Assembly (NCBI GenBank): GCA_947172415.1
Contig: OX359190.1
Span: 7,192,001 to 7,256,000, forward strand
Length of the DNA: 64,000 nt
From: Chondrosia reniformis
Taxonomy: Eukaryota > Porifera > Demospongiae > Chondrillida > Chondrillidae
Direction of reading: 5' to 3'
Under the pieces are notes generated by a model. The model did no database searches. It was not told where the DNA came from and saw nothing but the letters and a program-made list of their open reading frames with translations. Below, one piece after another: positions 20,243-50,500 of this stretch; position 1 is the stretch's first letter, and every line of letters starts with the position of its first letter. The position numbers and the translations under genes were made by a program.

Positions 20243-22979
20243 CTAACTACCCGTCTTCTTCCATTTACTGCTCTTTCTAAGTGACCTTTCCCATTCCTTT
20301 TTATGCAGCAAAAATATTCTCATTGCACTCCAGGCATCCTCAACCTGTTACGGATTGTAAATGAAATGATGTATTATTGATGAAAAACACAACTTCAGAT
20401 TAAAACTAAATCCAATGATTTTGACACTCAAGGCATTTAGATCGGCCGTCTGTTCCTATATTCATATTGCAGATAACTACCAGGGCATCTTTGGGATGGT
20501 AAAAACGCTTAAAATTCGAAGGATGTACCATCCCAAAGATAAGTTTGACACAGTTAGAATACCTACCAGGAGGAATCCTAATTCTATTATTGACTAACAG
20601 GGTACTTACAGAATTGTGTTCACCATCTTGAATACTTGTTTGAAGATAAATTTTGGCTAGCTTTTTGAGTGATGGAGTTTTACCCTGCAAAGTAAAGACA
20701 ATATTCCATGAATGTTCTGGTATACTGTAATATGTAGTTGTATTGTGTAAGATTGGTAGCACTGAACTATCTAAATATAATCCTTTGCGTAAAATTAAAA
20801 TCCCACTATAGCTACTATGACCACTACTACATGTGATACTATAGTTGAGGAATTAGTTATTAAGCAAGATTTAAGAAAACAAATAAATGCCGAATTGGTA
20901 GCATTTAGAGAACTTAGAACTCACTCTTGAATGAACTCGAAAGGGTTTATACTTTGAGGTGTCCCTTATATCTCTATGAGGGTGGCTCAACATTAGTACC
21001 TGAGAATTAAAAACAATTGACTAACGACTTTACTTGATCATGAGTTCAGTAAAAACAAATCAATAATTACAGACAGAAACAATAAATAATTGAAAGAACT
21101 AGTAGTTTTATTTAAACTGATTACAATTTGTAGAATACAGAGTAGTTCCATTGCAAGCAACAAACATTAGCTACACTAATTCTTTACCTTGAGGTCGTGG
21201 TGTATGGCATGACCAACTAAAATTCTTCCTTTACTCATTTCTGCAACTTCTTTTTGGATCTCTGAAAATTCTACAGCTAAATAAGCAGGACAAGTTGATT
21301 GAATTTCATACCAGTTATAAGGACAAAATAACTTACCTTTCTTTAGGTCTCTAGGCCTAATTCCACTGTACTTTGTACGGAAATCTGTTACTCTCTCTTT
21401 TGGCTTCACAAACTCATCCAAGAGTACGTGACCATAAGAATTTACAACACTACACCTAAGGGAGGAAAACAAGACTCATCAAACGTAACAAACAACAAAC
21501 CACAGGCACCACAATGTAAATATAAAATAAACATCAAGGGGTTGCTAATTTGATTTTGGAATGTAAAGCACCTGACAGTGGATCTAAGCCATTCACAGGC
21601 ATTAACTATAAAACATATCTGATTCATTACTAAAAATAATCATAATTTTCACAAACACAAGATCCAACATCACAGTAACTATGTAAGTTAGGAACACTGT
21701 TTCAGCCCCAAATGATGATTTTGTTCTACAAACAAAGCCTAACTTGTACACGAGTACATACATATACTGTATACGTAAGTGTAGTGCATTCAGCAGTTCA
21801 CTGTTGTAGTGCACACAGAACATCTTAAAAAGATCATGATATTTCTGTCTATAGGACTCATTAACCTAGCTTAATGAGATAATACGAGTTCTTTTCTTCA
21901 CCATTTGTAGGAGAAAACAGTCTTCCTAAGCATACTAGCAATGATCGATATAAAATTGCACTGGTTCTGGATATACACATATGTAAATTCTTAATGCTCT
22001 CATTTCTAGTATGTACTTCCTATACAAACTTTCATTACAGTTAATTACTTGTTTCTACTGTCCTTAATTGGATATGATGCAGCATACCTTGCCAACACAC
22101 TGGCATCTCCTGATGTTCCCGTCCCAACCATTTCACAATCAATTGCTATGTACTTGGTCATTCTACAAATAAGAGATACATCACTGCTATGTGAATATGC
22201 CCTATTCATCCCTATAGCTGCTTACATACCCTTGTTGCTCTTCAGGAGTAGCTGTCGAGCTGCTTTGCCCTTCAGTCAAAATACTCTTCTTTGGAGGAGG
22301 GTCTTCTTCAAACCATCTGCATAAAGATAGTCTTACTGAGACGTAGATTTTTAATTTTGATGTATATTCATATTTTCTCTATCTCCCACCATACATAAAG
22401 TTCATATAACAGAATCTAATGTACATTTACTGCTGCAACTCTGTCAAATGGGCAGATATCAATGTTGAAACTTGGTGTCAGCATTCGCAGACATCCTTAA
22501 AACATCCAAAGAATTTTGTAAATTTAATGTTCACTTTTATTTGCCCTATCTCTCACCATGCATTGTAGTACACTTAAAATGATGGTGAGGTTAGGGAACT
22601 GTACCACATGCCTACATGTAACCAATTGCAATAACAGCACCCTGCTTTACGTAACTACTAGTGACGTACCTATCTTGTGTCTTATGCTCCCTGTACAGCC
22701 TCTTACGTGTGGACTGTACGTGTGGTAACTTCGCCTTTTCTTTATCATTTGTTACACTTTCCTTAAGCTTTTCTTCTTCGAGGTGTCGCTAAAAGGAAAG
22801 ATATATTAAAATAAGATCTCAAATCTGATCACATGACGACTATTAAATAAATGTACTTGAAGCTTCTTCCAGTTGGCAGAGAAGTCTTTAAGCGATGCAG
22901 ATTGAGCAGTCAGTTTTGGAGGTTGCAATCTGAGCCGGTCATCTTCCGCATTCCCCCTCAACTTGGGAACTTCGGACAT
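20243..22979 (-). CDS. REXO4: RNA exonuclease 4, DEDDh family, 285 aa, 9 exons
   Basis: A 3'-5' exonuclease of the REX4 group, probably nucleolar and linked to rRNA processing. Exons (minus): 22979-22857, 22788-22670, 22316-22230, 22162-22088, 21455-21337, 21270-21188, 20999-20925, 20684-20610, 20344-20243. All junctions are GT-AG and the phases close. The N-terminus has KDFSANWKKLQ, like human DFSQNWKALQ. ExoI is AIDCEMVG (D118, E120). ExoII is GHAIHHDLK (D200). ExoIII is EHNSVEDAW (H250, D255). All five DEDDh residues are therefore present. VKPKERVTDFRTKYSGIRP is a family signature. It is shorter than human (about 420 aa) because the basic N-terminal region is reduced. Confidence 0.94.
20487..20540. 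other. Perfect 15-bp hairpin in REXO4 intron 8
   Basis: ATCTTTGGGATGGTA and TACCATCCCAAAGAT form a perfect stem around a 24-nt loop. The size suits a short RNA precursor, but the stem is shorter than most pre-miRNAs. A MITE fragment is an alternative. Confidence 0.5.
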
Positions 22980-23623: not shown

Positions 23624-24884
23624 ATGGAGTCTTATGTTAACAACATCAAGTGTCAACGGTTCTCATTATCAGGTATAAAGTGAAGATGGTTAGCATCTCT
23701 TTGTAAATGTTGGAAATGTGTGATTATAGAACAAATAACTGTCATAGTCTATGTACATAATAGAAGAAGCTTAGGGAACAGAATTCAACTTAAACATTTA
23801 TACTGCCTTATTTACTTTGGAAATACATTATGACAAGAGAAAATATCTATTATCTTGCAGTTAGGGTGTCAGGATTTTGATTGTATGAAATGCACTTGCA
23901 GAATTGTTTTTATATCTTTCACCAAATGCAGTATCTCATGGCAGCCTATTGGTGAATGGAATGTTTTTTGATGTAAGCATAGTTCTTATAAATTTGTAGA
24001 TTGTAATATTACATTTAAGGGCATACAACTTTGTTTTCAAAATTGTATTTTTGTGATTACAAGTCGTTGTACTGTCAGATTTTTGACAAAGTGTAAGGAA
24101 TAAGATATGTATAGTTATACTGGTGCAGTGAATGTTCCACATGCATGATCTATAGTTATACCTCATATTTTTATGTAGATGTCTAACTCAAATAGTTATC
24201 ATATTGTTAAGTTGTGCTGCAGAGATTGATAGAGTATATATGCAGAAGATATAAGTACCTTAGCTCTGTTTTAAGTAACCACTCAGTTAGATTTTGTGTG
24301 AAATTTGTTAGCAGTTTATCTATGTGGGTATGTACATGTAGTGTTGTCCATATACCTCTTATATTGTGTTTGTCAGTTATTTGTACAATTGCATGGTTGC
24401 ATGATGAGATGTCACCATGGTGAAGGGTCATTCATTGTTCTTCTTTCAATTGTGAGGTTTTCAACAGATGTTGAACATGTCAAATGCTGTATGTGGAATG
24501 TTTCTCATTGCCACCATTTCAATCACAGTTATCACCACATATGTGGCTATTATTCTGTATGAGGAATATACTGTAATTGCCTGTTAATGGCTCTGCACCT
24601 ATAAAAAGGAAAATTGCCTTGAAGATTCTTTTGTTGTTACAGAGGGAGAAAGAAGACTCAGGATCTCTGTAATACAGTTACTCAAAGAAAGAAGGATAAT
24701 CCTTGCTATTCAACTTTTGAAGCTGATATTGAGCCTAAAAAGGTTGTAGAAGCCTGTAGAGGATTTAGTAAGTTTGACCTAAAAGTATTGCATTTTAATA
24801 GCTATATCTAGACTGTAAGTTCTTTCAATATTATCATCTCATTCTCCTACAGTTCTGTACAGCCTACTTGATGAGGAGATATGA
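23624..24884 (+). CDS. Possible 67-aa protein, 3 exons, unrecognised
   Basis: Exons 23624-23672, 24645-24767 and 24853-24884 have GT-AG borders and compatible phases (1, 1), giving a closed frame. The protein starts MESYVNNIKCQ, has a basic middle (GRKKTQDLCNT) with evenly spread cysteines, and ends FILYSLLDEEI. I do not recognise the family. The last two exons look more coding-like than the first, so the true 5' end may differ. Its stop TGA (24882-24884) overlaps the hedgling ATG (24881-24883) as ATGA. If both lie on one mRNA it could be an upstream ORF or a bicistronic partner. Otherwise this may be 5' UTR of hedgling. Confidence 0.45.
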
Positions 24885-27800
24885 TAGACCTTAGTCCAGC
24901 CAGTCTCCTCTCACTGGTGTTGGTGGCATCAGTCAGTTCACTCTTACAGCAATCAGACCAATGTAACTCATACGACTTGTGGAGAGCAAGTTTTAATTTG
25001 TCTTGTCCTAAAGTACCATACTGGAGAGCTGTAGGTGAAGCAGAGGGCATTATAAAGGAAACATCATTCCTTTTTACAAGAGTGATAACAACAGCCAGCC
25101 CCTCTAATTACCTTCGATTTCCAAACAGTCAGGCTAGGAGAATGACAAGGTTTCTTCTTAAGCAGCTTGAGCTCCTCGCTGACTACATGGCCAATAGCAG
25201 AAGCTATCGGAGGTACTATGTGAATGTGTTGGCTGCTTGGACACAAGATGTTAATGACAGGTACCACTTCTTGCCTATACAACATGAAGGTGGGTGTACT
25301 AAACAATTGAAAGATACTCCATAGCTATTTATGTATGTAGATAATACTGTTTAGTATTTACATATGAGTGTACACGTGAAATTTGATATTTATACACTTT
25401 GATCACATAATACCTAATAAAAATCTTAAAACATTGAATTACAATATGCAGACTTAATATGTATCATTCATCAAATTATGAAAATTACAAACACTCTTTT
25501 TGTACTTAATGTTGCATTAAAATACGTAGTTGACAATTATTGAGCTAAAGCAACAGTAGAATTGAACTTTTCAACCCATAGGTTGAAAAGGGGCTTAGGC
25601 GGCTTTAGGCTTCATTGTCAATAATATTAATTAAAAAAAAAAAAAAGGAATATTTTGCATTGTACTCCGTCATGATGTACGTACGTATACAGGTCGGGCA
25701 GCTGTTATTAATGCTCCTGGACTTCGCTCATCAACACTTTTAAAGTTGGCCCTTGAAGTTGAATTTCCTTGGGTTTGGTATGCATCAAAAGATTACATCA
25801 TTGTTGCTGTATCTTCAGGTACGTATGGCAGTCATTATTGCATAATAACCATCAGATGATGAATACAGTGTATGTGCATCATATATGTATACATGTATAT
25901 TGTAAATAATAAATGAGTTTGCCACTATATTAGTACACATATTAAGCTGTTAAATAAATGGCATAACTAGTAAGTTTGTTTTTCTTTTTGGCAGGATGTC
26001 TCACACCGATTGACCTAGCTGTCTGGCTGGATTCTTCTGGATCGGTAGATTACCCTGATTTTATCAGGTCTAAGCAACTTGTGAATTCATTGCTTAGTAG
26101 ATTTGACATCAGTCACTCAGGGACCCAAGTCTCAGTTGGGACATTTTCATCCACTATTACCTATACAGACTTTAACTCTATTGACAATTTGAATGAAGCC
26201 ATTGATGAGGTGAATGATTTACCATACCAGAGGGGGTATACGTATACTGATTTGGCTCTGGAAGCTTGGTACCGTTACATTTTCACACAGAGTGGAGGTG
26301 TGCGTCCTATTGATGAAGGTAAGACTAAGATTTATTTGTAATAGAGGATCTTCACACTATATACTTACGTATGTATATAGAAGGATTGCAAGCATCCATT
26401 TGACTTAAATTCCTTTTTATACAAACGTAGGAATAGCAAGAGTTGGTCTGTTTTTGACTGATGGACGTGCCAGTAGAAGTTTTGACCGACATCTTGCCCC
26501 TCTTAGAGATCTTAGTCTTACCATCTATTCTATTGGAGTTGGAGACAGAATATCTGAATCGCAGTTACAGACTATAGCAACAAGTCCTGCAGAACAGCAT
26601 ACACTTGTGGTCGACGATTTTTCTTCTTTATCAGCATTTGTAGATGTTCTTACTGCATCTATATGTGGAAGTAAGAGAAAAAACAGCCACTTAAGTATAG
26701 TACTCCCCTGTATAAAGTATACATTCCACGATCTCCTATACCCTTCAAATATATACCACAATCTCCTACCCCCTTCACATTTATACTTATGTATGTACAT
26801 GTATATTGTAATATTGGTCACACTAAATGATACCTAAATCCTTTATCTCTTATCCAACTCTAAGTTCTTACTGGATGTGTTGCAATACCATATGTACGTA
26901 CGTATAATAACCATTTCTATGCTTTATACTACAATTCTATTATGTGTTGTAGGCCCATCCTATTTGGGTGGAAACCAAGAGCAGTCCAGTGAAGGGCAGG
27001 AGGGAGAAGTCAGGTACTTCAGGTCCCAATGTTCATTTCTTGCAAGCAGAGTAAATATACAAGTAGAAACAACACTTGGAGATGTAAGTCAACTCCACTT
27101 ACTGTATGTATGTACGTACGTATGTGTATGTTCATATATCTTTTACTGTATTCTCTTTTTCTTTTAAGAATGAGTTGTATGCCTCCAGTACTCTTCAGAA
27201 GCCTGGGTTGTTTTCAGCAGCCAACTTGGTAGTTAGAAACACTAACACATTGCAAAGATTTAAAAGGGTCTCTGTAGACCTAAATCAAGGAGCTGAGGTA
27301 TGAATGGTTATAAGCATGCACATTTATGTACATGTATGTGTGATGTTGTATATACACAGGTTCTATCTACATACTAATGCTCAAACTAGTATAATTTGTA
27401 AACTGAAGAAAATACGTATCTTTATTTCTTTATTGATCCTACTTATGAACTACATAAATATCCTCTTCTTTGTATCCTAGAATGTGTACATAGGGGTCAG
27501 GTGTACCTTCAGAAGTCAATTTGTTATATCCTTCTGGGAAGATTACTTTAATCAAGATGAAATGGATATCTTTATTGATGGAGATGCACCTGAAAATTCA
27601 CTGGTTACAAGAATAGCTTCCGCTTATATTGCTAACTACAATGAGTAAGTTCCCTTCAAGTTCCTCTGGTATAAGAAACTGAATTGAATAAAATAAAATT
27701 ATGTCTTTGTGAGATGGTTGAGAAATGAAGCAGTATTTCATGTGACACTGGGTATGTGTTTTATTGAAAAGCTCAAGACTCAATTAATAATGCAGAAATA

Positions 27801-30800
27801 CAAACATATGTACTCGCATGCCTATGTATTTCATATTTTTATTTGCATGTTTCAATTAACAATAAATGTTTTTATGTTAAGAGCTAAACTTATTAAGATC
27901 ACCCTTCCACTGTGGTTTATGAAAGCTACGTAACTTTACTTCCCTTTATCTCCTCCAGCTTCATATTTAGTATTAGCAATGGCAATTCAGAGGGAATTTT
28001 TGCAATTAATTCTCTGGGACAACTGACTACTACAAAAACTCTCAGAATTGATCACCTTCGTTTTAGCCTTACCATCTTGATTGCTTCCAAGATCACAACT
28101 TGCAGGCAAAGTCGTATCATTATACATGTTAACATCCGTCACACAAGGAATAGATTTAATCCATCAATCAACAATCCCATTAGTAGTCTATCAGTTTCCG
28201 AAAGGCAACAGATTTCTGAAAAGATCCATGATTTTGATATAACAGATCAAGATTCAGGTAGCAATGGTGTTGTTACTGTGAGAATTATTTCAGGGGATCC
28301 TGATGGAATATTTGATATAACTAATTCAGGAGTTCTTTATTTGGTGAAGGAGGTTAATGCTTCCATAACTGATCATTTTGACTTAATCCTTGAAGCCAAA
28401 GATAATGGCAGTCATCCGTTGGTGACCAGACATCGCTTTGTTGTTATGGTTTTGGACATAAATGAGCCCCCATTTTTCATTAATGGTTGTGAACAGCGCT
28501 TTGCTTGCAGTTGTACTATTTCAGAAGGTATTCCAGCAAATACAATTGTATGCAATGATTTGGTGCTTGGATTTGACTATGATCAGAATGAAAACAAACA
28601 AATTTACTATAAGGTATGCAAGTACGTACATACATACATACAGTACATATGTAAATAAGCTAAGAATGATCTTAAGACACGTAAACTTGAAAGCTTTGCT
28701 ATTTCATTGTAAAATTCAAATATAGCCAATCCTCTTTTTCCTGTTCTTAATATACATACGTATGTATAATTGATTTGGGATTTCTTACAGCTCTATCTGC
28801 ATTTTGATGTACATATGTACATTCTTACGTATATGCAGTTACGTACCTACATATATGTAGGTGTTACCTAATCAAACATAATTATATATCTACATATGTA
28901 CATATATACGTAGATATACAATCTTCTTCTTTATATATAGATTTTTCTTGATCCTTTGCCTATCGACATATCATCAACTGGTCAGCTTTTTACTAAGGAG
29001 TTGATAGATCGTGAGAAACTGCTTCCTTATGTTGATTTAGAAGGTAAAGTGATGATCAGTAATTTCCCAAACTTTAGAGAATCTACAGTTGGATCACTTA
29101 GAATAGTCATAGAGGACGTCAACGACAACTCTCCTAAATTCTTAGCTTCCTACTACTTGTTTAAAATACCTGAGGATGCCCCAATTGATACATTAGTGGG
29201 TCAGGTAAAGGCTATAGACCCAGATTCTGGAAAGGCTGGAGAAGTGTTCTATTCCATTGCTTCACAAATAAATGTCCCATTCCAAATTAATAAGAATGGT
29301 AGTTTGTTGGTGGGTGATATGCTGGATAAGGAGACTGTAGAGAGGTATACATTTCATGTAGAGGCAACTGATAATGACACTCCTTTCCTGTCTGGCACGG
29401 CTTTTGTCACCGTGATTATCTTAGATGTAAATGACAACAGGCCCACCTTCACTCAATCCATTTACTTTGCCTACGTGGAAGAGAATATTATTGGTCAGCC
29501 AATCCAATACAATGGATCAAGCCTCCAAGCTGATGATATGGATGGTACACCCTTATCATATAGCCTCCTGAATCAGAATACACAACCTTTCAAGATAGAT
29601 TCCTCTAGTGGTCAAATTTTTCCATCAGTTGAGCTTGATGCTGAAATAAACTTGGATTATCACCTACTTGTTCTAGTCAATGATAACGGTAACCCGCCAC
29701 AGTTAGCTTCTAGCCGTGTCATTGTTAAGGTCAAAGATGTTAATGACAGACCACCAATGTTTCTGCAGTCAATGTTTATTTTCAATGTTTTAGAAGGCAG
29801 TCCAATTGGGACCATTGTAGAACAAGTGCAAGCCTTTGATGATGATGTAACATCACAATCACTTACCTATTCACTCCAAAGGCAGAATAGGTTACCCTTT
29901 TCCATTAATACCTCAACTGGGGAAATTGCTGTTACAGAAGTTTTGGATTTCGATGTTGCCACTGAATACAATTTAACAGTAGTAGCTGAGGACGATGGGA
30001 GACCATCTCCTTTGAGGTCCTTTGTTGCAGTTACAATTAAAGTTGTTGAAATAGTGCCTCCATCACCTTCTGTTAATGAATCACTTGTAGAACTTTCCAT
30101 CCCCGAAGATGTTTTTGTTGGTTTTGAACTTGTTCAAATTGATGGTTTAAGTGCTGACATACGTTTTTCAATTGTCAGTGGAAATACAAAAGGTCATTTT
30201 GCATTAAATGAATCATCTGGTATTTTGACCACAGCTACAAGTCTTGATTTTGAGCGAATTAGGCAATATACTCTGACCATTAAAGTGTTTGCAGCCATGC
30301 ATCCAGAATTACACAGCAATGTCACTGTGATTGTAAATGTGACAGATGTCAATGATAACAGGCCTGTATTATTAGGTGTACCCAGTACTCTGCTCACGCT
30401 TCCTGAAAATGAACTTCCACGAAAACTTTTTATGGTCAATGTCTCTGATGATGATAGCCGTATATGGTTTGACCCTCTCTTCTCCTTACAAGTTTGGCCA
30501 AGCTCCAATTGTCAAGCCAATTTCACCATAAACCAATTGGGTGAGGTTTATCTAGCTGGGTCAGTCCTGGGATTAGGGTTATGCAGATTTAACCTTGAAA
30601 TAAGAGTGCTTGATTTTCAGAACAATCCACAATCTATGTCTTCAGACATTGCAATGGCTATTGTCACTATAGAAGATTTAAATGATAATATTCCTGAATT
30701 TCAGCACAGCAACCCTTTATTCTTATCCATTACAGAGAATACGCCATTTAATGAGCCTGTTTTGAAGGTGGATGTTGAAGATCTTGATGTTGGAGAAAAT

Positions 30801-33800
30801 GCTTTAATTGATTTGTCTGTTATGAATTGTACAGCATACAAAAACTGCTTGCTGGCAACTTATTTAAATGGCAACTGCATTTCAGAGAATAAAGAATGTC
30901 CATTCAAACTAAGCAGTCAAAATCATTTGTATGTTTCTAATCAGCTGGACTTTGAGGAAGCCTCAATCTATGATGTTTCTATCCTTGCTTCTGATAATGG
31001 AACTCCATCTCAGTCCTCTCTCTTACAGATAATAATTTCGATTCTAGATGAAAACGATTCGCCAGTGATGGTTCATCCAAGCTCTATATACAAAGAACTT
31101 CCTGAAAACGCCTTCCCTGGAACTGTAATAACAGTTGTTGCTGTTAGAGATGATGATGCCTTCGGTTCACTTGAAAACCATACTTTCTCAATTGTTAGTA
31201 GGCCGTTCCTTTCCATGGACTTTAACATTTCTAGTGGAGAATTAATCCTCTTGGAAAGTTTGGACTATGAGGCTGTACCTTTGGTCAAGATAGCTCTTAC
31301 AGTATCAGATAACCTAACCTCTGCTGATACTTTTATCCAGCTGACAGTTGGCAATGTAAATGACAACACGCCAGAATTTTCTAAAGCCCAGTACTACTTC
31401 AATATTAGTGAGTCTGCTAAAATTGGAGATTTTGTTGGATCAGTGACAGCAAGTGATTTGGATTCTCCTGAGTTTGGACCATTGCTTTACAGTTTAATTG
31501 GAAACTTATTACCATTTGAAGTCGATCAGTCAGGTATTTTATCTGTATCTTCGATATTGGACTTTGAGACAGATTATATGTATACGTTTTCTGTTCTGGT
31601 ACAAGATAGCAATGGAGAAGATAGTGCTCTCAGTAACTTAGCTTCTGTTGTGGTATTTGTTATAAATGTAAATGACAATCCTCCAAACTTAGTTTCTCCA
31701 GGTGGGAACGTTATTGTCACTGCACCTGAAACTAACAACTTTTTTAACTTATCTGCTTTGGATCCTGATGATCCAGCCAACCCAAATCCACATGTTGAAT
31801 TCTTCATTATATCTCAACAACCTTTGAATAAGGATAACATTTCTGCCCAATATAGAATATTCATTCGTGTTCAAGACAGAAACGACCCTACTTCTTACAG
31901 TGTTGGAAATCTCACAGTGGTACTGACTTTTGACTGTAATCTAGTTGCCTTTTTTGTTGACAGATACTCTGGAGAACTTTCTCTGTCTACATTGTGTTCA
32001 TTGGAGATTGAAGCTCCTCCATCTGTTCCAGTTGGTTCCTCTGTTACCCTAAGGTGCTTAGCAGTGGGTAATGCTGTTTTAGTGTACTCTTGGTATCAGG
32101 GTGCTGTTCTTGTGGCTCGAACAGGTACTTACAGCACACTAGCATTGAGGAATGTGAGCATGTCAGCTGGTGGACAGTATAGTTGTGAGGCTCAAAATGC
32201 CGCAGGTCTCCTTGCATCATCTCCTAAATCTCTGGAGGTTGTAGGTGAGTTTACAGATTTAGAAACCAAATTCATGTCTTACGTATTAAAGCTGTTAACA
32301 TTATGTCTCTTCAGAATATGTATTGAAATTATGTATATTTCCTTTCCTCCAACCAAAGGCCCACCCTCCATATTTGGATTGATTGACAAGGAAGTTCTTA
32401 TTGGCACTTCTTGTACTTTTGAATGTATAGTGGATAGCTCCTCAAACTTTACTTTGGTGTGGGTCAAAGATGGAGTTCTAATTGATGATAGTAGTGACAA
32501 CATAGAAATAGCTAATGAGACATTGACAATTTTGAACACTAGACAGAGTGATGAAGGAACATTTTCATGTATTGCAACCAACCTTGCAGGTAGCACACGT
32601 TCTGATCCAGGAATTTTAAGTGTTTGTGGTAAGCTGATGCACTTTTGGGCTGCTTTTGATTCAGTTAAATATTGTCTATTAGCAGACAGGGCTGCATGCA
32701 GAACTTTGGGGCCAGGGGAAGGGGGGAAAATGAAATTTTTCAAAATTTAGGGGGGTAATGGTATGGGGATGTCAAAGCAGTTTATGTTAACTTCCCTATA
32801 GTCTTGGGGGTCAAAATCAAACCTAGGGGGAGGGAAATGCCCCCCTGCACCCCTGGCAATGTAATAAGCATGACTGGTAATTTTATATACGTACAATACT
32901 GTATACGTATATACGTACGTACGTAGGTATATATAGGTATATATTATATGAACAGGTTACGTATATGGATAAAATTGTCTTCTTACAGATTGCAGAGAGC
33001 CATATACTGGGAATTTTACATTTAGTATCCCTCGCAAAACTTCAATGATACCCTATTTTGTTGGTTCTGTGCTATCCCCATATCATGATTATTTCAAGTA
33101 AGGAAAATTTAGCATCATTATTACATACGTGTATGTACAAACATTATGTGTAATGGGGCAACTAAAGAAAAACTATGTACATGCTTTCTTTTGTATCATA
33201 GGTACAACTATATCATTGATCAAGGTGAAAGTGTATTTTCTGTCGACAGTCAAAATGGTTCACTTTTTCTTACACAGTCCATTGAATCAGAAACTGAGCT
33301 CTCCTATGTGTTAGTTATAGGAGCTACTGATCCTACTGGCATTTTCAGTGGAGTAACCTATGTTACAATTGATGTGGTGGAAGTAAATGCACGTGCACCT
33401 GTCTTTATTGGTGTTCCAAGTCAACCCTTATCAGTGCAGGAATTGCTTCCTATAAATTCAACCATTCTAACATTTTATGTAGCAGACAATGACCCCGGAA
33501 GGAGTGGACTTGTAGAAGTATCCATTAAGCCAATGTTAGATCATGCATTGTTTGGCTTGTATGAAACAGTGGGAGAACGAGGAAAGTGGAGTCTCTTTAC
33601 ACGTCAGATCTTAAATGCATCAGTTGAAACTGAATTTAGTATTTATATTGTGGCTACTGATTTGGCACCTTCACCTAGATCTGTGCAGATTAGACTTGTA
33701 ATAGTTGTTGAAGATGTTAACCAGCCTCCAATATTCGTACAGTCTTGTGCAAAGGAAGATCGTCCTTGTGACTTTTCTTTCCTTGAGAATTCTGTTGTTG

Positions 33801-36800
33801 GTTATAATATTGGTTGCATCAATGCATTTGATGTGGACAAGGGCAAAAATGGGCAGCTGGAATATAGTCTTTCAAATAATATTAGCTTCACTATCAATTC
33901 TTCTGGATGTATTTTCTTAAATGATAATTTTGATTTTGATATACTTACAACCAAGGTTTGGGTCCTAAAGCTGATTGTGAACGATGGTGGTAATCTAGGA
34001 ATTGAGACGGAAGTTTCTATCAGAATATTAGATGTAAATGACATTTCACCAGTTTTCATTTCCAACTCATTGTCATTTAATCTGAGGGAATCATTCTCAC
34101 ACTCTGTATTTGGCACTGTTAGTGCCATAGATGGAGACAGTGGAGTGGCTGGCGAGGTAGTATATTCCTTGCAGAATACTTCAGTTTTTAGTATATCCCC
34201 TGACACTGGAGACCTGACATTGCTCGACAGGCTTGACTTTGAACTGCAAGAAGTGTACATGATCAATGTCACTGCCACAGACAAAGGTAAACTTTTTAAC
34301 ACATTAAATTCACCACTTAGTTATAATGTATGCATACAAAGTGATTGTTAAATATTCATAATGAGTATACAATTTTATGTAAGCCACTATTTATTGTTGA
34401 TATGAATTACTTAAGAGTTACTTAAAAATTTATACGTTCCTTATACGTACATATTTGAAATGCCTTGTCTTTATACATATTTAGGTATTCCACCTTTGAA
34501 GAGTGATGCAATCTTGACAATCACAGTTGTTAATATCAATGATAATGCTCCCGAGTTTATTGATACACCCAACTGCACTAATGTGGCAGAATCGGTTGAA
34601 GCTGGAGATGTGGTTGCTGCACTGTCAGCTGTAGATAGAGATATGTTGGGATTGACATATGGATTAGCAGCTAATGTTAATAGGCAAGTGCTCTTTCATT
34701 ATAAATGGAGATACGTATATATGTACGTACGTACGTATAAAAGTATACGTATGTACATTACTTATATTCTCTAGTCAAAAATTTACTGAAAGTGTGAATT
34801 CTCTTAATTGTTATACATACTGTTATGTGCATTTGTACATACGTATGTATTTTATATGTAAGAATTGGGATGACATATCTAATGACAACACTGTGCGTCC
34901 ATATCATTTTGGTGATTATTATTTTTCCAATACTTTCTTTCACAGTGATTTCTTTGTTGTTGACGAATCAACTGGATACATTCGATTACTTCAAGAAGTG
35001 GATGCAGAGGATCACGAACAGTTTCAGTTGAGCTTTACCGTTCATGATACCCTATTTTCTGATCAAACATACCGCTGCTTTAGCATTGTTGATGTTAATG
35101 ACAATTTGCCCTTGTTCAGTGAGAGTGAATACTACTTTGCTGTACCTCTAAGCGCCTTGCCAGGGTATATAGTGGGTTATGTTCAAGCCAGTGATAGAGA
35201 TAGGTCTGTCCAAAATGGACTTATTCCACTTCAGTATTCCATCATTGGAGGAAATGATAAACAGTTATTTGAATTAAATACCTTAAGTGGTGCTGTAATG
35301 TTGGCAACCAAAGTGAACGCATCGCAGCAGCAGTACCTTCAGGTGTCAGTGATTGATGATGGTTCCATACCGGATCATGCGGATGTATTTATTGAAATCT
35401 ATGATGATTCTATAAATCTACCATTCTTTGCCAACAATACTCTGCATATTTATGTCTTAGAAAATAATGAGGTGGGACTTAAACTGGCTCAGTTAGATAT
35501 TGATCAGGTGTTAGCTCATTTCTCAGCTAGTGATGTTGCAGTCTCCATTATGGTTGCTGAAGCTTTAGTGGATGTGAAGTATGATAATACATCTAGAATA
35601 CTCCTCTTACAGACATCTGTTGACAGAGAGATTCTGCAAGACCCAATTATTGTAGTTCAAGTCATGATTTCCTCAACTGGTAGTTCCAATTCCTCCCTCT
35701 CTTCGGAAATATATTTACAAATAGTTGATCAAAATGATAATGTTCCACAATTCATTTCTAATGGCCCTTTTAATATTTTGCTACCCGAAGACAATCCTGC
35801 TGGTTTACAAGTTCTGCTCATAGAAGTAGCAGATATGGATTTTGGTCTTAATAGTGAAGTAATGCTAGAATTGCAACCTAATAGATTAGTATGTGCAGAG
35901 TTATTGTCAATAGATCAAAGTGGATCCATTAAAGTGAATAATATCACTACTGTAAATAACATAGAGACATGTCACTACACCATCAGAGCAACTGATAAAG
36001 GTAGCCCAGCACTTGCTAATACTACTAGACTTACTGTGACATTTGAAGACATCAATAATCATGATCCAGAATTTCAACAAGAATCATATAACTTCACTGT
36101 CAATGAGAATGATAATTCCATTTTTTACCCTTTTGGATTTGTTGCAGCAATGGATAATGACAGAAATGAAAATGCATTGTTGTCTTACTCACTTGTGCCA
36201 AATACGGTAAAGGCTTTCAAAAATGGAATTGAGTTGCTGAATTCTAGAGTACTGTTTTTGGTTGGTTCCACAAGTGGTGGATTGGTGACTACTGTTTCTC
36301 TAGACTTTGAAATAGAGGACAAGTATACATTTCAGGTCCAGGCTCAAGACTCTGGTTCTCCTCCTAGGAGTAGTAGGATCAATGTTACTGTTTTTGTAAT
36401 GAATTTTAATGACAATCCTCCTCGGTTTGGCAGCCATCATTACCTAATTAAGGTGAATGAAAGTCTACCAATTGATTCTATTATTTTTTCTCCAAGTGTA
36501 GAAGATATAGATGGACCAGCTAATCAACCTTTTTTCTTTTGGCTTTATATTTTCCCATCAAATGTGCCTTTGACTGTGGATAGAAGGAGTGGAATCATTT
36601 CACTCAGTGGTTTATTAGATTTTGAACAAACCTCTCTAGTCAGTGCTTCACTAACGGTCTCAGATGGACTCTTTTTAGGGAGAGCTCTTCTTTCCATTGT
36701 AATTGAAAATGTAAATGATGGTACTCCACTTTTTCAGGTAGACTGTAGTGGAAGAATTCCAGAAGACTATCCACTTAGCAAAAGAATAGTGCGATGCCTT

Positions 36801-39800
36801 GCCATTGACTCTGATAAGGGGTCCTTTGGGGAGCTTAAGTACTCAATTATTTCAGGAAATGAAAATGATTTATTTGCAATTACACCATTTACAGCAGATA
36901 TCTCACTCAACAAACCCTTAGATTTTGAAACTAAATCCTTTTATAGTCTAACAATACTTGTTACGGATGGAGGTGGCATAAATGCTACTACAGTTGCACT
37001 GATATCAGTTGAAAATGTTGATGACAACTCCCCTAGATTAGTTGGGGATACATCTTTCACAATTTCAGAAATTCCCTTAGATAAACCCATAAACCTTCTT
37101 AACCTTACTGCTCAGGATGATGATACTCCAAATGTGCAGCCTGTGGTCACGTTCTCTCTAGCTTCTGATACCAAGTTTGATCTATTGAGACAAAACTATT
37201 TTGTGTCTGTTCGTATAAGTGAGAGCAGCGGTCGCTTCTTTTCAGAAACTATTATAAGTGTCTACTTTGACTCGCAATGTCTCTTAGCAGACTTCAAGAT
37301 TGTAAGCAGTGGACTACAGGTACGTATGCACAATTTGTGAAGTTATTTCTTGCTAATACTTATGTAGATATAAATAAATACTGTATGAAAATCTAATACA
37401 CCATTTCCCTACATGCTATGCCTACTCTGTAAAAAAACCTTTAGGGAACTAAACCTGGAGAGAGCTTTAGATGAAGATGCAGGCCTTGGAGTCTTTTGTT
37501 TTCTTTCTTCTTCTGCTCCACTGAGCCATGCATGTGCATACGTATGTATATGTAAATAAATACTGTATGCATATGTAAATAGTAAACAGGCTCTCAAATA
37601 ACCTTTCAAAAGATAATATACAAATATGTAGGAAAGGCATGTTTTATGGCTTCAATGTGTCTCATAATATATATAAACTGCACAATGCTCTGGTACTCTG
37701 CAGGAGAGTCTGGTGATACACACTCTATGTAGCATTGAACTTAGCGTGTTTGGTCCTTTGGTACAGTACCATACAGCCATCATAGAAGTTACAGCTATGG
37801 GAATATTGGAGGTGGAAAAGTACTGTTGGTTCCGGAATAAGGAGTCTCTTGGTTGTATTAAAAGTAATCAATTAAGATTGTCAAATTTAACATCAGATGA
37901 CCAAGGAACATACCATGCAGTTGGGTATACTACACTTGGCACCATCCAATCAGAAACTTTGGAAATTGACATACAAAGTACGTAATGGGAGATTGTAACA
38001 ACATATTTTATGTGCTATAAGTGTGTTTTGATGCGTAATATAAGTTAATGAATGCTCCATTCATGCTTTTGTGATACTATTGTAGTACCACCAACAGTTC
38101 AGGAACTTTCAGATTGGAGAACTCAGTTCAATGAACCTGTAATACTCTCTTGTTGGATAAACAATCCTAAATATGTACCTGTAAAAGCAACCTGGCTGAA
38201 GGAAGGTGTTGTACTTGACTCCGTGCAGACAACAGAGAATTTATTCTTCATTACGTATGCTATCAACAACGTTCAGTTTAGCGACCAAGGAACATACACT
38301 TGTGAGATAAGATTTGGTGATGGTGAAACTCGTTCTTCTTCAGCTGAACTCTTTGTACATTGTGAGTTTGCATATTTAAATTTTGTTTTAAGTTGTTAGG
38401 TCTGAAATCTGTTATACCTATATATGTATATGCCTATTTCTGAATCATTTTTCAGGTCTAGTATTTGTATATACGTATGTCTTATTATATTCAAAATTCT
38501 CTACCAGACTATCTAATTCTTTCATAATCCCATAATCCTTTGTAGATGGATCATCACTGATATCTCTGGACATTCAAGTGTATAATTATTCTTATGAAGA
38601 CAGATGTCAAGAATTTGACATATATGCTTTTCTTGTAAGTATTACAAGCCTGTATGTATGCTGTTTCAATGGAGTAAATTCTCACTTTCTAATATACATA
38701 CATATTTATGTACATACGTGCACAGAATGTATATAGCTCTGGAGGAATACCCACTAAGTATATACCTATGGCAAGAAGGAATTGTGAGTTTTCCATAGTA
38801 GAGCGAAACAATCAAATATGTCAGAACATTTCAGTCTTTAGACCTTCTTCAGCTGATACTAATACATTAACGTAAATGTTCTGAATATTTAATTGTTTTA
38901 CTCTGCTACAGAAAGCTCACTTTTCCTTCTTGTCATAGACAACGTAGCAGTGAATCTATATTCTAAACATACGTATATATAAATATTACATACATACATA
39001 CATACATGTACGTATATAAATATTACATATGTACGTACCTCCGGTCCCTGTCTGACACTTAGGATGATGTGGCTGAGTTTTATGAAGAAGGTGCTACTCC
39101 TTCCATAGTTTCCTTCAGAGCTGAAAATGTGTGTCAAGAGGGCCCATGCTATCCTAACCCCTGTGCCAATGGTGGTCAGTGTCAACTCAGAGGAAACACG
39201 TCAGCTTGTGTTTGCTTACCCGGATGGACTGGGACTTTCTGTGATGAGATAATCAATGAATGTTCCAAGGATGTTTGTCTCTTGGATGGAACTTGTGTGT
39301 CTTATGGATTAAATAGTGCCTCGTTTTCTTGTGTCTGCCACTCACAAAGAACTGGTCAAAACTGTGAACTGATTAAATATAGTTGCAATGGCAATCCTTG
39401 TTCAGGGGAGGCTGGTACTATATGCCTTCTTTCAGAATATAGTCCCAAAGGCTATGTCTGCAATCCATCTGAACTGTTTCATTTGAAAATAGTCTCTAGC
39501 ACATACTTCAACGCAAGAGGTCACCTACCTTTTGGTTCTGTGAATTTTGTAAACACTCTGGACAGTCTATCCCTTGAAATCCTGTCTATATATGATGCTG
39601 AATCCATAATAGATGTTTTCTTAGATGTAAGTTGAGATGACATGAAATAATATTTCAAGATGTATGTTTTGGTAGTATTTAGTGTGACTAGGCTAGTTGA
39701 TGAACCTCACAATGTATTTCGAAATATCTGTTAACAACATTGTACTTATATTTACAGACGGTAGTGACAGGTTGTAATCCAAGAATTGTAATGGCTGATA

Positions 39801-42800
39801 ATTCTACTGCTTCCTTTGCCATTGTGTGCCATGATCAAACTGTCATATCTGAATCAGACCAAGAGGATATTTGTAGAGCTCTGGTGGATAATAACCTGTT
39901 TTCTGAATGTACAACTCCTAGAGGTATTACCATAGCCGAAAACATTGCCAATGGACGGTATGTAATTTCCTGTAGCACATATACATACATACGTACGTAC
40001 CTTTCACCTTTTTGATGCAGTAAATAACTAAATGTATGCTTTTGTCCAAAATATGAAATATGAAATATGAAATGAGACATGTTCAACTTGTACATTTTTC
40101 TTTTCTGCCAGAATTACTTGTGACTTTTACATGTATGATCAGAGCAATGAGTCCATACCAGCTGATATAGTGTTACAGATAGTGACACTGCAGAGTAGTG
40201 TGATCCAAGATACACCAGATTTTGAGGTCCTGGCCATTCAAAGATCAAATAATTTAACTGATGATCAAGCTGCACCTATTTTAGGTAAGACAATGGTGCC
40301 AGTGCATCTAGCAGGCAACTGTCTATAAACCTCGCCAGAATAATTCTCATTCCTTCATCAGTTCCATACGTACGTACATAAAGAACATCTGACATGGGTT
40401 ATCACTTGTAGTGGTAGAGTGCTGGTAGAGAACGTTTTCCATTGCTCTAAATGATGTGTGGTGAATTACTTTTACATGAGCCTGTTGTCTGATGGCACAA
40501 CATATTTCTCTCTTCCCCATACAATGAAGTCTATGTACATACATACGTAGCTCTACCTGATATACGTACGTATTTGTGTGTACATACATAGGTGTTTGAT
40601 TATTATTAAATATTTTTCTTATTCAATATTCATTTATTTTGTCTGATAATATATCCTGGCTGCTCTTTATCCTTGCAGTGTCTTCAGGCTCGTCTGGTTT
40701 CCCTGCATATGCTGCTGGGCTTTTGGCTGGATTTCTAACTTTAGCCTGTCTTGCTTGTTGTATTGTTACTATCCTTTGTGCTTGGTGGAATAGGAGAAAG
40801 TAAGTTAAGAAAATTAGATTAGCAAATGGTCACAACAATATTGCTCAATAGTGGGTGAACCACTAGTACACAGCCCTGTTATAGACAATTAGTCTTAGCT
40901 ATAATTCCTGTCTAGTCCTTAATTAAATCAAGCACAAAGTATTGTATAGAGCAGTTTACATATCTCCTTATGCGTATGTCCACTGATTATATACAGACAC
41001 AGTAGATATGTGCAGCTTTAAATGAAGTATATACTCTTTTTGCTTGTTACTTCTCTCTATTTGGCCTGAAAACTGTGCTTAAGTCGACTTCCCTCAATTT
41101 TATGACTCTGAAAGGAGTGATTTAATCTCAGTCTCAGTATTTATTTATGTAATCAAACTTTGAAAAGACAAATTAGTATAAATGTATCTTTACATGGTTT
41201 AACCTTATACATCTACTCTACTTATACTGTAACAATTTTACTTACATATAGGAAGAAAATTGTAGAGAAGCAGTTTATTGTACAGAGGTCAAGTGGCTTA
41301 ACTAATGCCTCATCATTTGACAATGGTAATAAATCCATTTATGCTATAACCACCTACCCTGTATACAGTACGTATATACTTACTAGGATGTAAATAATTG
41401 TAACATAGACATACAACAGGAACTAGGTTTGCTATATACTGTATATTGATTTAATACGTGTACTCCACCTCCACAGATTATGGTATATCTGGTGGTTATC
41501 TTGCTTACAATACAAGACCTGATAATGAGTGAGTTTCTTAAAGTTCTTTCTGTGAACATTTATAGATTTATGTGTTTCTGCAATTGTGATCATCATAAGT
41601 AATATAATAGAGTAAGGATTTCTTCTAACTGCATCTGTCAAAAGATAAGTAATGTACATACATATGTATGTCTTTCCAACAGTGAATACATTGATGATGA
41701 AGAATTCTATGTCAATCCAAATGAATCTAAAGGTTCAGATTCAATTTGGGATGACAATAGTGATGCAAATGCAAGAAGCTTAAATTCTCAGCAATCTCTT
41801 CTTTCAATTGAAGACGTACAAGTATGTTGGCATTAATGTATATGGTTATGTACGTATGTGTGTACCAATAGACTATATTATAACAGTAAAGTGGAGGTGT
41901 AAGTTCCTTAACTGTAGTTAGAATGATCGATAGTTACCATTTAATCATAGTGGGTACATATGTGCCAATTATCTTATTAAGCATTTTCAAGATACATCTT
42001 TAGAATAACAACACTTTCATATATAGGGCCATAATAAATGGTGTGTACTCCTATAAATAGACTATGTATATATGTACATAGATAATCTATGTTATGTGTA
42101 GATGAGATATACGTACATATACGTATACAGTATGTGTGAATAAGTATGTATACAGTATATAGGTGACCTTTTGTGACATTTTACTTTAATAATTTTACCA
42201 TTTTCATTGCTTGAGTGATGTTGTCACTCAATCCATGTTATGACTCAAACCCATTTTTAGAATGGCTATGTTGATGCTAACGATGTCAACAATTTTCACC
42301 ATCAAAGTAATCAAACAGTGACCATCAAAAACCCACTAACTGGTAACCCTGAGGACAATTTGAAGATGTGAGTAATTGAAATTCACTATCCCACCAGGCA
42401 TTCTTATTTTAGATGAATTTGGAACATTATGCATAAACCTAATTTTAGTTTGAAACATTTCAGAATCACTATAATGTAATGGATATACGTACGTATATAG
42501 GAGTAGTCAACAATCCATTCTCAAAGGTGCTACAATTGAAGAGGAAAATCCTCTATATTCTTCAAGACAGGAGTTTGTTATTCAGCATACTGAAACTACA
42601 ATCCATGAAGATGTTACAGTAGAAATGGACGACAATGCAGACTTTGATGATCGATATACAGAAATGCATGCATATCAGGAAATTGATGTCCAATCTCATG
42701 AGTAAGTTAATTCATTTTCTCTACTTCTGTAAGATGTAAGATTGTGGCAAATGTCAATTAGTATTTTTCTCTATATTAGTAAATAGTCAGTCTCAATGTG

Positions 42801-42895
42801 TAGTTGAGCTAGTGTATGTATTTCACTTAGATTTCATATTTTACAGGTCTGAAATGTATCTAGAAGTAGTTGGAAAGACAAAGGAATCACAGTAG
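24881..42895 (+). CDS. hedgling: Hedgling-type Hedge-vWA-cadherin-Ig-EGF transmembrane protein, about 3,959 aa
   Basis: A giant single-pass cell-surface protein. Exons: 24881-25289, 25693-25818, 25995-26318, 26431-26670, 26953-27083, 27169-27297, 27481-27644, 27959-28613, 28941-32244, 32359-32628, 32989-33097, 33202-34286, 34485-34683, 34946-37319, 37704-37977, 38086-38361, 38546-38634, 39063-39626, 39758-39957, 40112-40284, 40679-40799, 41252-41367, 41477-41528, 41683-41821, 42261-42367, 42501-42701, 42847-42895. All phases close. In order: signal peptide (1 to about 25); Hedge domain (to about 178; RRMTRFLLKQLELLADY, QHEGRAAVI, FPWVWYASK); vWA (184-366, MIDAS DSSGS at 191-195); about 20 cadherin repeats with DVNDN-type linkers in two blocks; Ig pairs near 1740-1917 and 3180-3356; three EGFs (about 3408-3520); a possible SEA-like region; TM (about 3706-3737); a tyrosine-rich tail of about 220 aa. 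No Hog/Hint autoprocessing domain is present, as is typical of hedgling. The intron at 34684 has a GC donor. Confidence 0.9.
32687..32855. mobile_element. Possible MITE fragment in hedgling intron 10
   Basis: CAGGGCTGCA at 32687 and TGCACCCCTG at 32846 are inverted with one mismatch. The interior has G-runs and a C-run, like the element at 3483-3656. The reading frame upstream runs on into it only by chance. Confidence 0.4.
37400..37535. repeat. Interspersed repeat family, copy 3 (hedgling intron 14)
   Basis: CATGCTATGCCTACTCTGT, TTTAGGGAACTAAACC, GAGAGCTTTAGATGAAGATG and TTCTTCTGCTCCACTG match the reverse complement of 17415-17535. It is non-coding. Confidence 0.6.
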
Positions 42896-47500: not shown

Positions 47501-50500
47501 TATATACTTGTATACACATTATTAATGCTGTTTAAAGCCAGCAGTAACATGGCAAATATTTGCAGCATGGGGGTGTACTTTAGTTTAAGGGTTACACTTG
47601 GTAAATTGTTATGGGCGTTTTATTTTGACGCCATAATTTTGCCTGATAACTCTACAGTTGAGTATATATGTACAGTTACCTAGACTGGCAACGGCTCTTA
47701 TGCACATACCTTCTAGTACACAAGTTAATCCATCTTCCTGCAAGGCTCTACCAGAATGACAACCACAGGCATAGCTACCAGGCAAATCATAACACAATTC
47801 TTCACATTCACCATTGTCCACCATGCACTCATTAATGTCTGAATTACAAGAACAATGAAAATTATTAAAACATTAATCTTCTAATTTATTTATTTAGACT
47901 ATTAGCACTCACTTCTACAAGATATTCCATTGTCTTCTAATATGTATCCTTCAAGGCAGTAGCAAGTAAAACTTCCCAAAGTATTGTTACAGCGATGATC
48001 ACAAGGATTTCGTAAACATTCATTATCATCTGATATCAAAACAGAACAACGATATAGTGTGCCCATGCATAAAAGTGACAATAACATAAAAGTAAATTAA
48101 TCTGATCTAGGACAGCACTTGGACACTACAAAAACTAAGTGCATTTTAATCACACTTACATACCAATACAAGTTCTTTCATCTATTCCTAGAAGAAAACC
48201 TGTGTCACAACTGCATAGAAAACCACCATTAGTGTTGTTGCAACTGTGATGGCATGTATTTGGGTTGAGACATTCGTCTATATCTAAAGAAAGATGTAAT
48301 AAATTTAATTACTATTATTTAGTCACCTAATCATGGAGTGACAATTGTGGTAAACCACAAACAACAATCAAGTTACTATAGAAATTATAGTATATTATGT
48401 ACAAAAGGAATACTGATATAATCAATCACTAAAAACTGCTATCATTTCTTTTAACTTATATCCTGTTTGAATAGCATCACCTCATCTGAAGCATTCTTGG
48501 AGTGTATAAAACATGTACGTATATAGGTAACTATCATAGCAATAGATGTGATGAGTACGTACGTATATAGCCATGCTGCAATTTAGTGATTGTGATTTTA
48601 GCCTATGCTTCACTAACCTATTTCACATCTGCTACCTCTAAAATATGGTGTGCAAGCACATTCATTACCAGGAATACAGGTACCATTGTTATTACATGGA
48701 GGATCACAAGTCTCTAATAAAGAAAGATAAATGCAAACATCAGTGTCAAATCCTCCCTGAAGAACAAATAATTACTTAAGAACATCATTCATGTTTAAAA
48801 TTGACAGTGAATTTCGTAATTAGATCTCTAACTTGATCTTGGAACATAAATTCAGATAGAAATCTTACGTTGTAATTGACAGGATCCATTTATCATTTCA
48901 TGGCCTCTAAAACAGTTGCATACATGTGATCCTTCATGATTAATACATTGTTGTTCACAACCACCATTATTGAAGGAGCACTCGTTGACATCTACGTACA
49001 TTAGTGCCAAATGTCTCAACAAGTATGTATACATAGTAATAAGATGAAAATGAAGTAAACAGCCCATACCTTTACATGTTTTATTATTAGGTCGAAGCTC
49101 GTAGCCAGGGTGACAACTGCAATAGTACGAACCAAGCGTATCACGACAGTTATGTTGACAACCACCATTATTTCTGCAGCAATCACACTTATCTATAAGG
49201 TATAAATACAAATTAATAAATTTAGGATATATATGACTAAAAATTGGTAACAATTGAAAACACACAGTTGTCAGCAATACTTTTAGTAGTGATGAATGAC
49301 TTCTATACAGGTAAATTGCTAACTTAGTTTGTATTAATGTACATAACTACAAATGTATTACAACTTGTATGTACCAATGCAAGATAGTCTGTCTCTATCC
49401 AACTTGTAACCAGGATTACATGCGCAAGAAAAAGAGCCAGGACTGTTAATACATATATGACTACATCCTCCTTTGTTTCTGCTACATTCATTTATATCTG
49501 CAGCAGAAAATTAATACATAATCAAACCTCAAAGCAATCATCACACATGAACTATCCTGCTATAATTTAAAGACTACCAACCTTGATTACATCCTACTCC
49601 TGACCATCCAGGATTGCAGACACAAAAACCATGCGAGTCGCATCCTCCATTACTACAACTGGTCCTATCGCATCCTTGGCGCCTAACTACCGGGTATATG
49701 TAGGTATATTTTGCAAATATAACACATGAAGTGAATAAATCAATATAACTATATAAACTCACGGAGGCCAACTTCATCAATTTGAAAAATGAATCTTCCA
49801 GATACGTTTACATTTGACATTGATGCAATATTAGATATTCTACTAGTTCCTGAATGTTCTATATTGAGTGTTCGCTCTCTAATGATATCGTCATAGCCAG
49901 CTACTGCATAATAGGTAATGTGATTCCTTCGAAAAGAACTCCATCCCATACCATCATCAAGATAATTGAACATAGCAAAAGACCAAGTACCATTAGTAAT
50001 CAGTACACATTGGAATGTGTTAGTCTATAGAAAAAAGTTGAATTAACTAACACATTGGTTTATAGATTTTATCAGCATGCATTGTGTAACAGCATCTACT
50101 CTAAGAGAAATCACATTATATATGTTGATTAAAAATACCTTTGAATTTGCTGCATTTGTGCAACTCCGATCACAGAAAGACATTACTTTCAACCAGCTAG
50201 CTACCAGAACATACCTAGCTTCAAAACTGTAAGCGTGAGGGAGGCTGTTACGTATATCATTAGTAGCCCGCTGCAATATAGCAGCATTTTCACTGCCATA
50301 GGCTTTGTATGTAATTGTACCACCATTTCTGTTTCCAACTCTACGAGTTATATCTATATCAGCATGAAAGGGGGCAACTATTGAAATCTGGGTCCCCTCT
50401 ACCCTTTCATAGCGTGGGAATGGACTTGGTTCCCAGGCTTGATGAAAGCTCCCAGAGAAAGAGATAATACCATTTGAATTTACCTGTAAGAAGATAATGC

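Follow-up and report, generated by a model that had tools for sequence, protein, structure and literature searches.

A diverged hedgling-type gene with two cadherin-Ig blocks in the demosponge Chondrosia reniformis

Introduction

What kind of gene opens with the signalling domain of Hedgehog and runs on into a giant cadherin, and how would such a gene in one sponge relate to the hedglings already described? The question is raised by a locus of Chondrosia reniformis at 24881-42895 (+) of a 64,000-nt stretch of DNA, here called the window (G000:C2:7192001-7256000; contig C2 has 10,288,994 bases). Coordinates without a contig name are positions in the window, and searches of the genome covered 117,379,552 bases in 15 contigs. 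The window contains a hedgling-type gene, as a reading of its bare sequence (the original prediction) had claimed. Compared at the sequence level, this gene is a divergent second hedgling paralog, and the counterpart of the published Hedgling of Amphimedon queenslandica is a different gene on the same chromosome.

Hedglings as a gene type are known in sponges, cnidarians and choanoflagellates, and the window gene is a much altered variant of that type. The work of Adamska and others in 2007 is said to be the founding paper. In those portions of the hedgling literature that were consulted, there is no description of Chondrosia, of a doubled cadherin-immunoglobulin (Ig) block or of a cleavage motif close to the membrane. 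In the C. reniformis genome paper, no word of the main text begins with 'hedge' (PMC12181767).

A single gene model from Hedge domain to tail

A model built independently from the raw sequence has 27 exons and a coding length of 11,838 nt including the stop codon, which is divisible by three and bears out the original prediction of 27 exons joined in phase. It encodes 3,945 residues, and the sole stop is at the end. All 26 acceptors are AG, 25 of the 26 donors are GT, and the remaining donor, after exon 13 (34683), is GC. In exon 1 the reading frame opens at 24875, and an in-frame stop immediately precedes the ATG at 24881. Two of the exons, of 3,304 and 2,374 nt, are free of stops along their whole length, which would not be expected by chance in DNA of about 36% G+C. 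An upstream open stretch at 24623-24811 was tried as a further coding exon and rejected, given the in-frame stop directly 5′ of the ATG at 24881 and the lack of a Pfam match. If that stretch (+) were spliced from its GTAAGT donor to 24853, its frame would reach a TGA at 24882-24884 that overlaps the hedgling start codon as ATGA.

The Hedge domain was said to lie in the first two exons, and the absence of an HH_signal match had been named as grounds for giving up the idea. Pfam finds the domain above its cut-off of 22.1 bits (33.3 bits, E 4.8e-8; residues 49-174, profile positions 34-160 of 161), split between exon 1 (24881-25289), which encodes a hydrophobic, signal-peptide-like start and about 70% of Hedge, and exon 2 (25693-25818), which encodes the remainder. 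Against the sequences of solved structures, the window Hedge finds hedgehogs first (best Desert hedgehog, 2wg3, E 8.7e-5), and hedgehogs make up 25 of the 27 listed rows. In that alignment the segments RMTRFLLKQLELLAD, QHEGRAAVI and FPWVWYASK fall at the places in Shh that the original prediction had given them. The VWA domain follows directly, in exons 3-4 (25995-26318 and 26431-26670; PF00092, 103.2 bits, residues 185-357), and exons 5-7 (26953-27083, 27169-27297 and 27481-27644) carry a post-VWA region and the start of the first cadherin.

It is at this junction that the unity of the gene could be doubted. The Hedge-VWA exons might form a separate gene for a small secreted protein, spliced to the cadherin exons sometimes or never, and in the portions of PMC4054682 consulted, Salpingoeca rosetta is indeed described as having small Hh-domain proteins with a signal sequence, without a membrane stretch, and with Hh beside VWA. 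Here, however, the VWA-cadherin joins are in phase and show the same intron phases as in the second Chondrosia hedgling described below, and the Amphimedon Hedgling, whose domains come in the same order, stands in the database as one 2,416-aa protein. We regard two separate genes as very improbable, and treat the locus as a single gene.

The cadherin region is carried by exons 8-10 (27959-28613, 28941-32244 and 32359-32628) and exons 11-16 (32989-33097, 33202-34286, 34485-34683, 34946-37319, 37704-37977 and 38086-38361). Pfam Cadherin scores 358 and 319 bits in the two halves of the protein, with a further match in the first 685 residues. A local profile, made from 8 hedgling repeats and then refined by iteration on the four hedglings compared here, finds 22 cadherin stretches at an independent E-value (i-E) below 0.01. 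Ig_3, I-set and Ig_2 are above cut-off in both blocks. Standing alone, two Ig stretches are listed in the first block and one in the second, so the first Ig of the second block rests on the alignment of the blocks with each other.

Exons 17-18 (38546-38634 and 39063-39626) encode a linker and an EGF-like region, whose PF00008 score of 20.8 bits is just below the cut-off of 21.5 and whose cysteines line up with the EGF region in each of the other three hedglings. Exons 19-20 (39758-39957 and 40112-40284) encode the juxtamembrane region, and exon 21 (40679-40799) a hydrophobic stretch that we take to be the transmembrane helix. The hydropathy scan gives one membrane-type stretch above 1.9 besides the N-terminus, beginning at residue 3708, and its Kyte-Doolittle mean of 2.63 over 19 residues from residue 3713 is the maximum of the protein. 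Each of the four hedglings has one such stretch besides its N-terminus. The N-terminal value itself is 1.92 in the window protein (19 residues at residue 4), 1.98 in Amphimedon and lower, 1.02, in the second copy. Exons 22-27 (41252-41325, 41477-41528, 41683-41821, 42261-42367, 42501-42701 and 42847-42895) encode a tyrosine-rich, putatively cytoplasmic tail and the stop codon. The tail has no Pfam match at E 0.001, and the protein has neither an SH2 nor a Hint match in Pfam. Tail tyrosines within 41683-42895 occur as EFYVNP, NPLYSS and EMYLEV, settings that we take to resemble SH2 ligands. The claim of a complete hedgling-type gene with VWA, cadherin, Ig, EGF and membrane segments in that order therefore holds, EGF being the weaker item.

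A 28-exon model with an additional open stretch at 38726-38871 was rejected for its broken frame; dropping the stretch restores the frame, and the exon order then equals the layout of the second copy. The stretch could conceivably serve as an alternative exon that ends translation before the EGF-like region and the membrane anchor, thereby producing a soluble form. It has an AG acceptor and a GT donor, and the frame of exon 17 continues through it for 48 codons; splicing onward leads to a stop after a few more codons, and reading onward leads directly to TAA. An open stretch of 146 nt can nevertheless be due to chance, and a comparison by eye finds no counterpart in the exon layout of the second copy, no search for one having been made. 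A soluble form by this route is improbable in our estimate, and the 27-exon, membrane-anchored model is used in what follows.

Two hedglings in one genome

A second hedgling lies at G000:C2:118686-127621, 7.1 Mb from the window gene on the same chromosome, and encodes 2,427 aa in 18 exons with the domain order of the window copy (its Pfam scan covered the protein outside residues 705-979). The genome-wide Pfam HH_signal search lists a single match, at G000:C2:118794-119084, and this belongs to the second copy. Its Hedge domain finds hedgehogs among the sequences of solved structures at E 4.8e-9 and two matches in the protein database. The better of these is P0023, the Hedgling of A. queenslandica (UniProt A9YRX2; 41% identity over 98% of the query), and the other is P0024 (2,417 aa, source 'lgn').

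Searches with the window copy gave a different picture. Its Hedge domain drew 156 candidates from the protein database, none at E <= 1, and this one search found no ortholog. A query of the first 400 residues of a piece of the window protein 1,917 residues long drew 22 matches from database proteins of up to about 3,350 aa, and among these matches P0019 alone is listed with HH_signal in Pfam. The rest are related through VWA (collagen VI, integrin alpha-M and VWFA proteins), and the Amphimedon Hedgling is not among them. From 24 database proteins in all, P0019, P0023 and P0024 were used and 21 were dropped by their names and Pfam lists. Within the genome, the window Hedge matches the window locus only, and a query of 428 residues of Amphimedon Hedgling lists 26 places, namely the two hedgling loci and matches that start at VWA. 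Two hedglings were thus found in this genome, and a third may exist that is too diverged for six-frame searches.

In the genome, the Amphimedon Hedge-VWA query matches best a single open frame of 660 aa on another contig (L009:934-2916 (-), G000:C7 near 7456824-7457564). It has a VWA domain of 136.8 bits followed by a region like the post-VWA part of hedglings and has no HH_signal, and so looks like a hedgling-like cassette without Hedge.

Which of the two hedglings corresponds to the published one can be read from the identities. In Hedge, the second copy is 47.2% identical to Amphimedon and the window copy 31.1%; in VWA the values are 51.0% and 33.3%. The second copy is also the closer one over the whole length, and the two Chondrosia copies share only 34.7% of Hedge and 33.5% of VWA residues with each other. 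When five sequences are placed in a maximum-likelihood tree with P0019 (source eukprot; HH_signal, VWA and cadherin) as the root, 98 of 100 bootstraps set the second copy, Amphimedon and P0024 apart from the window copy. Alignment to the Amphimedon protein, which the original prediction had proposed as a check, thus upholds the gene type and at the same time indicates that the window gene is not the counterpart of that protein.

The shared architecture is nevertheless clear. Like the window copy, the Amphimedon Hedgling has a hydrophobic start, Hedge, VWA, cadherins, Ig domains, an EGF-like region, a membrane stretch and a tail; it differs in length (2,416 versus 3,945 aa), in having one cadherin-Ig block instead of two, with two Ig domains, in its RRKR before the membrane and in the retention of His141. 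The second Chondrosia hedgling agrees with the window copy in domain order and in the phases of the first seven introns, and differs in its single cadherin-Ig block, its 12 cadherin stretches (one partial) against 22, and its retained His141 and RRRR.

How old is the pair? The tree suggests that the copies probably parted before the Chondrosia and Amphimedon lineages split. Alternatively, the window gene could be a recent, fast-evolving duplicate of the canonical hedgling, made in the Chondrosia lineage and given apparent depth by long-branch attraction. The branches of the window copy and the outgroup are indeed very long (1.25 and 1.68 substitutions per site), no ortholog of the window copy came from the one search made, and both copies are on the same chromosome. 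Such a recent origin is harder to reconcile with the bootstrap grouping of the second copy with Amphimedon and with an identity gap that is found in Hedge and VWA alike; the two hedgling homologs reported for Ephydatia muelleri in the consulted portion of PMC4942974 would at least allow an old pair. We consider a recent duplicate somewhat unlikely and favor the older separation.

A doubled cadherin-Ig ectodomain

The ectodomain sets the window protein apart from the other hedglings compared here. The canonical hedgling protein has a single block of 11 cadherins, one partial repeat and two Ig domains. The window protein has 11 cadherin stretches at residues 481-1641 (the first starting in exon 7) and 11 more at 1952-3079, each run followed by a weak partial repeat (i-E 0.2 in the first block, which is very weak, and 0.01 in the second) and an Ig region, with two Ig domains in the first block. 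At i-E < 0.01 the cadherin counts are 22 for the window copy, 12 for the second copy, 12 for Amphimedon and 13 for P0024, the last three including one or two partial repeats.

At 26.6% identity (E 1.3e-88), the two blocks are collinear along their full extent of about 1,420 residues, and both can also be aligned over their full extent with the block of the second copy (E 1.1e-95 and 2.5e-78). The introns tell the same story. Three introns that are single in the second copy are present in duplicate in the window copy, namely a phase-2 intron that opens the block and two phase-1 introns on either side of the second Ig; the recurring pairs of the window copy are introns 7/11, 9/15 and 10/16. The Ig introns agree within one column, the block-opening introns are 3 columns apart, and intron 11 is offset by 2 columns relative to its counterpart in the second copy. 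Alignment and intron phases together show a tandem duplication, within the window gene, of the exon run that encodes the whole cadherin-Ig block. This duplication is old, since the blocks resemble each other no more than they resemble the second copy.

The Nematostella hedgling Nv 200640 (3,592 aa), as described in the consulted portion of PMC2362128, also has a Hedge domain of two exons, VWA in exons 3-4, many cadherins, Ig, EGF and a membrane stretch. It differs, by the same description, in having 21 cadherins followed by two Ig domains and a terminal SH2, in contrast to the two blocks of the window protein.

Eroded metal ligands and a missing juxtamembrane motif

The original prediction had called the first domain a signalling domain. 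The Hedge fold, as judged by sequence, stands, and the window gene shares it with the Hedgehogs (Shh, Ihh, Dhh and Drosophila Hh); the name says nothing about function. Unlike Hedgehog, the window gene has no Hint match, encodes a giant protein with a membrane stretch, and keeps none of the three zinc-triad residues and only one of the six calcium ligands. For these counts, the triad columns are taken to be His141, Asp148 and His183 of mouse Shh, and the calcium ligands are taken to be six acidic positions of Hedgehog. In the zinc-triad columns the window copy has Gln, Val and Ile, the second copy His, Arg and Lys, Amphimedon His, Arg and Arg, and P0024 His, Arg and His. A His adjoins the His141 column in the window copy, and a shift of the alignment by one residue would keep that ligand. 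Its one calcium ligand, Asp132, is lacking in the other three hedglings. Glu90 and Glu91 are replaced by Asp in the second copy, Glu91 is replaced by Asp in Amphimedon, and Asp96 is deleted in all four. Hedglings with incomplete metal sites are already on record, according to the consulted portions of PMC6027127 and PMC8052667.

Hedgehog ligands also carry a Hint/Hog domain, which performs the cleavage and attaches cholesterol; the Pfam scan of the window protein gave no match to it. The sole Hint match listed for the genome, of 143 bits, is at G000:C7:4761008-4761583, on a different chromosome from both hedglings, and so Hedge and Hint lie on separate genes. Three Patched-family matches are listed for the genome, two of which contain stop codons in their six-frame stretch. 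These Patched-family and Hint matches do not show that Hedge binds Patched in this sponge.

Another difference is found close to the membrane. The second copy, Amphimedon and P0024 have an R-x-K/R-R motif at residues 2139 (RRRR), 2098 (RRKR) and 2101, respectively, about 130-140 residues ahead of the membrane stretch. The juxtamembrane region of the window copy has no such motif, and the only one in the protein is at residue 440; the second copy has a further one at 451. This shared furin-type motif suggests that the three other hedglings may be cut by furin near the membrane at this putative site. Furin domains have been reported in some hedglings in the consulted portion of PMC4054682, which on our reading refers to a domain and not to a cleavage site. 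Such cleavage of canonical hedglings would be a natural way for an anchored Hedge domain to become a released one.

Hedge intron borders and the origin of Hedgehog

Exon borders bear on a larger question, the source of the Hedge domain in Hedgehog itself. In the N-terminal region, each of the seven window introns is matched in the second copy by one of the same phase, six of them within one column and the other 6 columns off. In both copies, Hedge is split by a phase-1 intron within the Gly of H-E-G|R or Y-E-G|R (Q-H-E-G|R at the end of window exon 1), and a second phase-1 intron closes the domain in the codon before the first VWA cysteine. The original prediction had presented this copy as a source of exon borders for each domain. 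Hedgling exon borders have a precedent, two exons for Hedge and exons 3 and 4 for VWA having already been described in Nematostella in the consulted portion of PMC2362128. The two-exon Hedge of both Chondrosia genes agrees with that description and is at odds with PMC8052667, a consulted portion of which places the Hedgling Hh domain in a single large exon and uses this as an argument for a separate bacterial origin of Hedgehog. An independent bacterial origin is argued in the consulted portions of both PMC6027127 and PMC8052667.

A comparison with vertebrate Hedgehog needs a common landmark, for which we used a glutamate that is presumably E176 in human SHH. In the mouse it is E177, as given in the consulted portion of PMC8052667. 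Human SHH exon 2 ends at c.562, and c.562+1G>A is a reported splicing variant (PMC9320703, consulted in part). This border comes after the first base of codon 188, 12 residues past the reference glutamate; the residue at +12 in the window copy is a Gly that a phase-1 intron splits. The corresponding split of the second copy comes one codon later, at +13.

Equal phase and nearly equal place are what would speak for one shared intron, so that the Hedge-closing intron of the window gene could conceivably be that of vertebrate Hedgehog, in phase 1 and in the same codon of a gap-free alignment. This identity is doubtful, and we hold it as the less probable case. Phase-1 introns are common at the ends of extracellular modules, and the first intron of SHH, which we take to follow codon 100, differs in position from that of the hedglings; both points weaken the shared-intron reading. 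A literature search on hedgehog intron phases returned no match. If the introns were the same, Hedgehog would have acquired Hedge from a hedgling-like gene through exon shuffling, by recombination in the Hedge-closing intron, and the single-large-exon argument for a bacterial origin of Hedgehog would fail.

Other features of the window

Several open frames surround the gene. On the minus strand, open stretches at 21176-22221 (-) look like a putative REXO4-type exonuclease, and open frames at 48852-50576 (-) contain a nidogen-like NIDO domain and calcium-binding EGF repeats. An open frame at 12804-13379 has DUF7869 (PF25273) and is possibly from a mobile element. Downstream of the hedgling, two adjoining open frames occupy 54751-56481, the second of which (55282-56478) has a hAT transposase dimerisation domain (PF05699), indicative of a transposon.

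Proposed role of the window gene

Taken together, the gene is most likely a functional, divergent hedgling paralog that encodes a single-pass surface protein for adhesion or recognition. Some 22 cadherin and some four Ig domains would form a long rod that keeps Hedge and VWA far from the cell, and the Hedge-VWA tip could then engage a partner carried by another cell or by the matrix. Hedge, if active at all, would offer a surface for binding; it would be neither an enzyme nor a metal-stabilised Hedgehog ligand, being presumably catalytically dead. The tyrosine-rich tail may relay contact to SH2-type adaptors. The gene arose by gene duplication, more probably than not ahead of the split between the Chondrosia and Amphimedon lineages, and by tandem duplication of the cadherin-Ig block within it.

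Several observations weigh against this interpretation. The word 'functional' rests on the open frame. The calcium ligands, as aligned, are eroded in all four hedglings, and the window copy is no worse than the rest and distinct by zinc only. The EGF-like region falls short of its Pfam cut-off, and the six-frame HH_signal search of the genome lists the second copy and not the window copy. The last of these is presumably due to the intron that cuts the domain and is not taken as evidence against the window copy, since the spliced protein passes the cut-off. With five sequences and long branches, moreover, the old date of the gene duplication may be an artefact of fast evolution, and the empty ortholog search counts on the same side.

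Implications for the hedgling family

Hedgling is a main candidate source for the Hedge domain in Hedgehog genes. With the exon borders of two complete sponge genes, one can test whether Hedgehog shares the intron that ends Hedge, as exon shuffling would have it, or lacks it, as would fit an independent bacterial origin, and whether two hedglings were already present in the demosponge ancestor. With its zinc ligands gone, its ectodomain doubled and its cleavage-type motif absent, the window copy shows how far a member of this family can drift.

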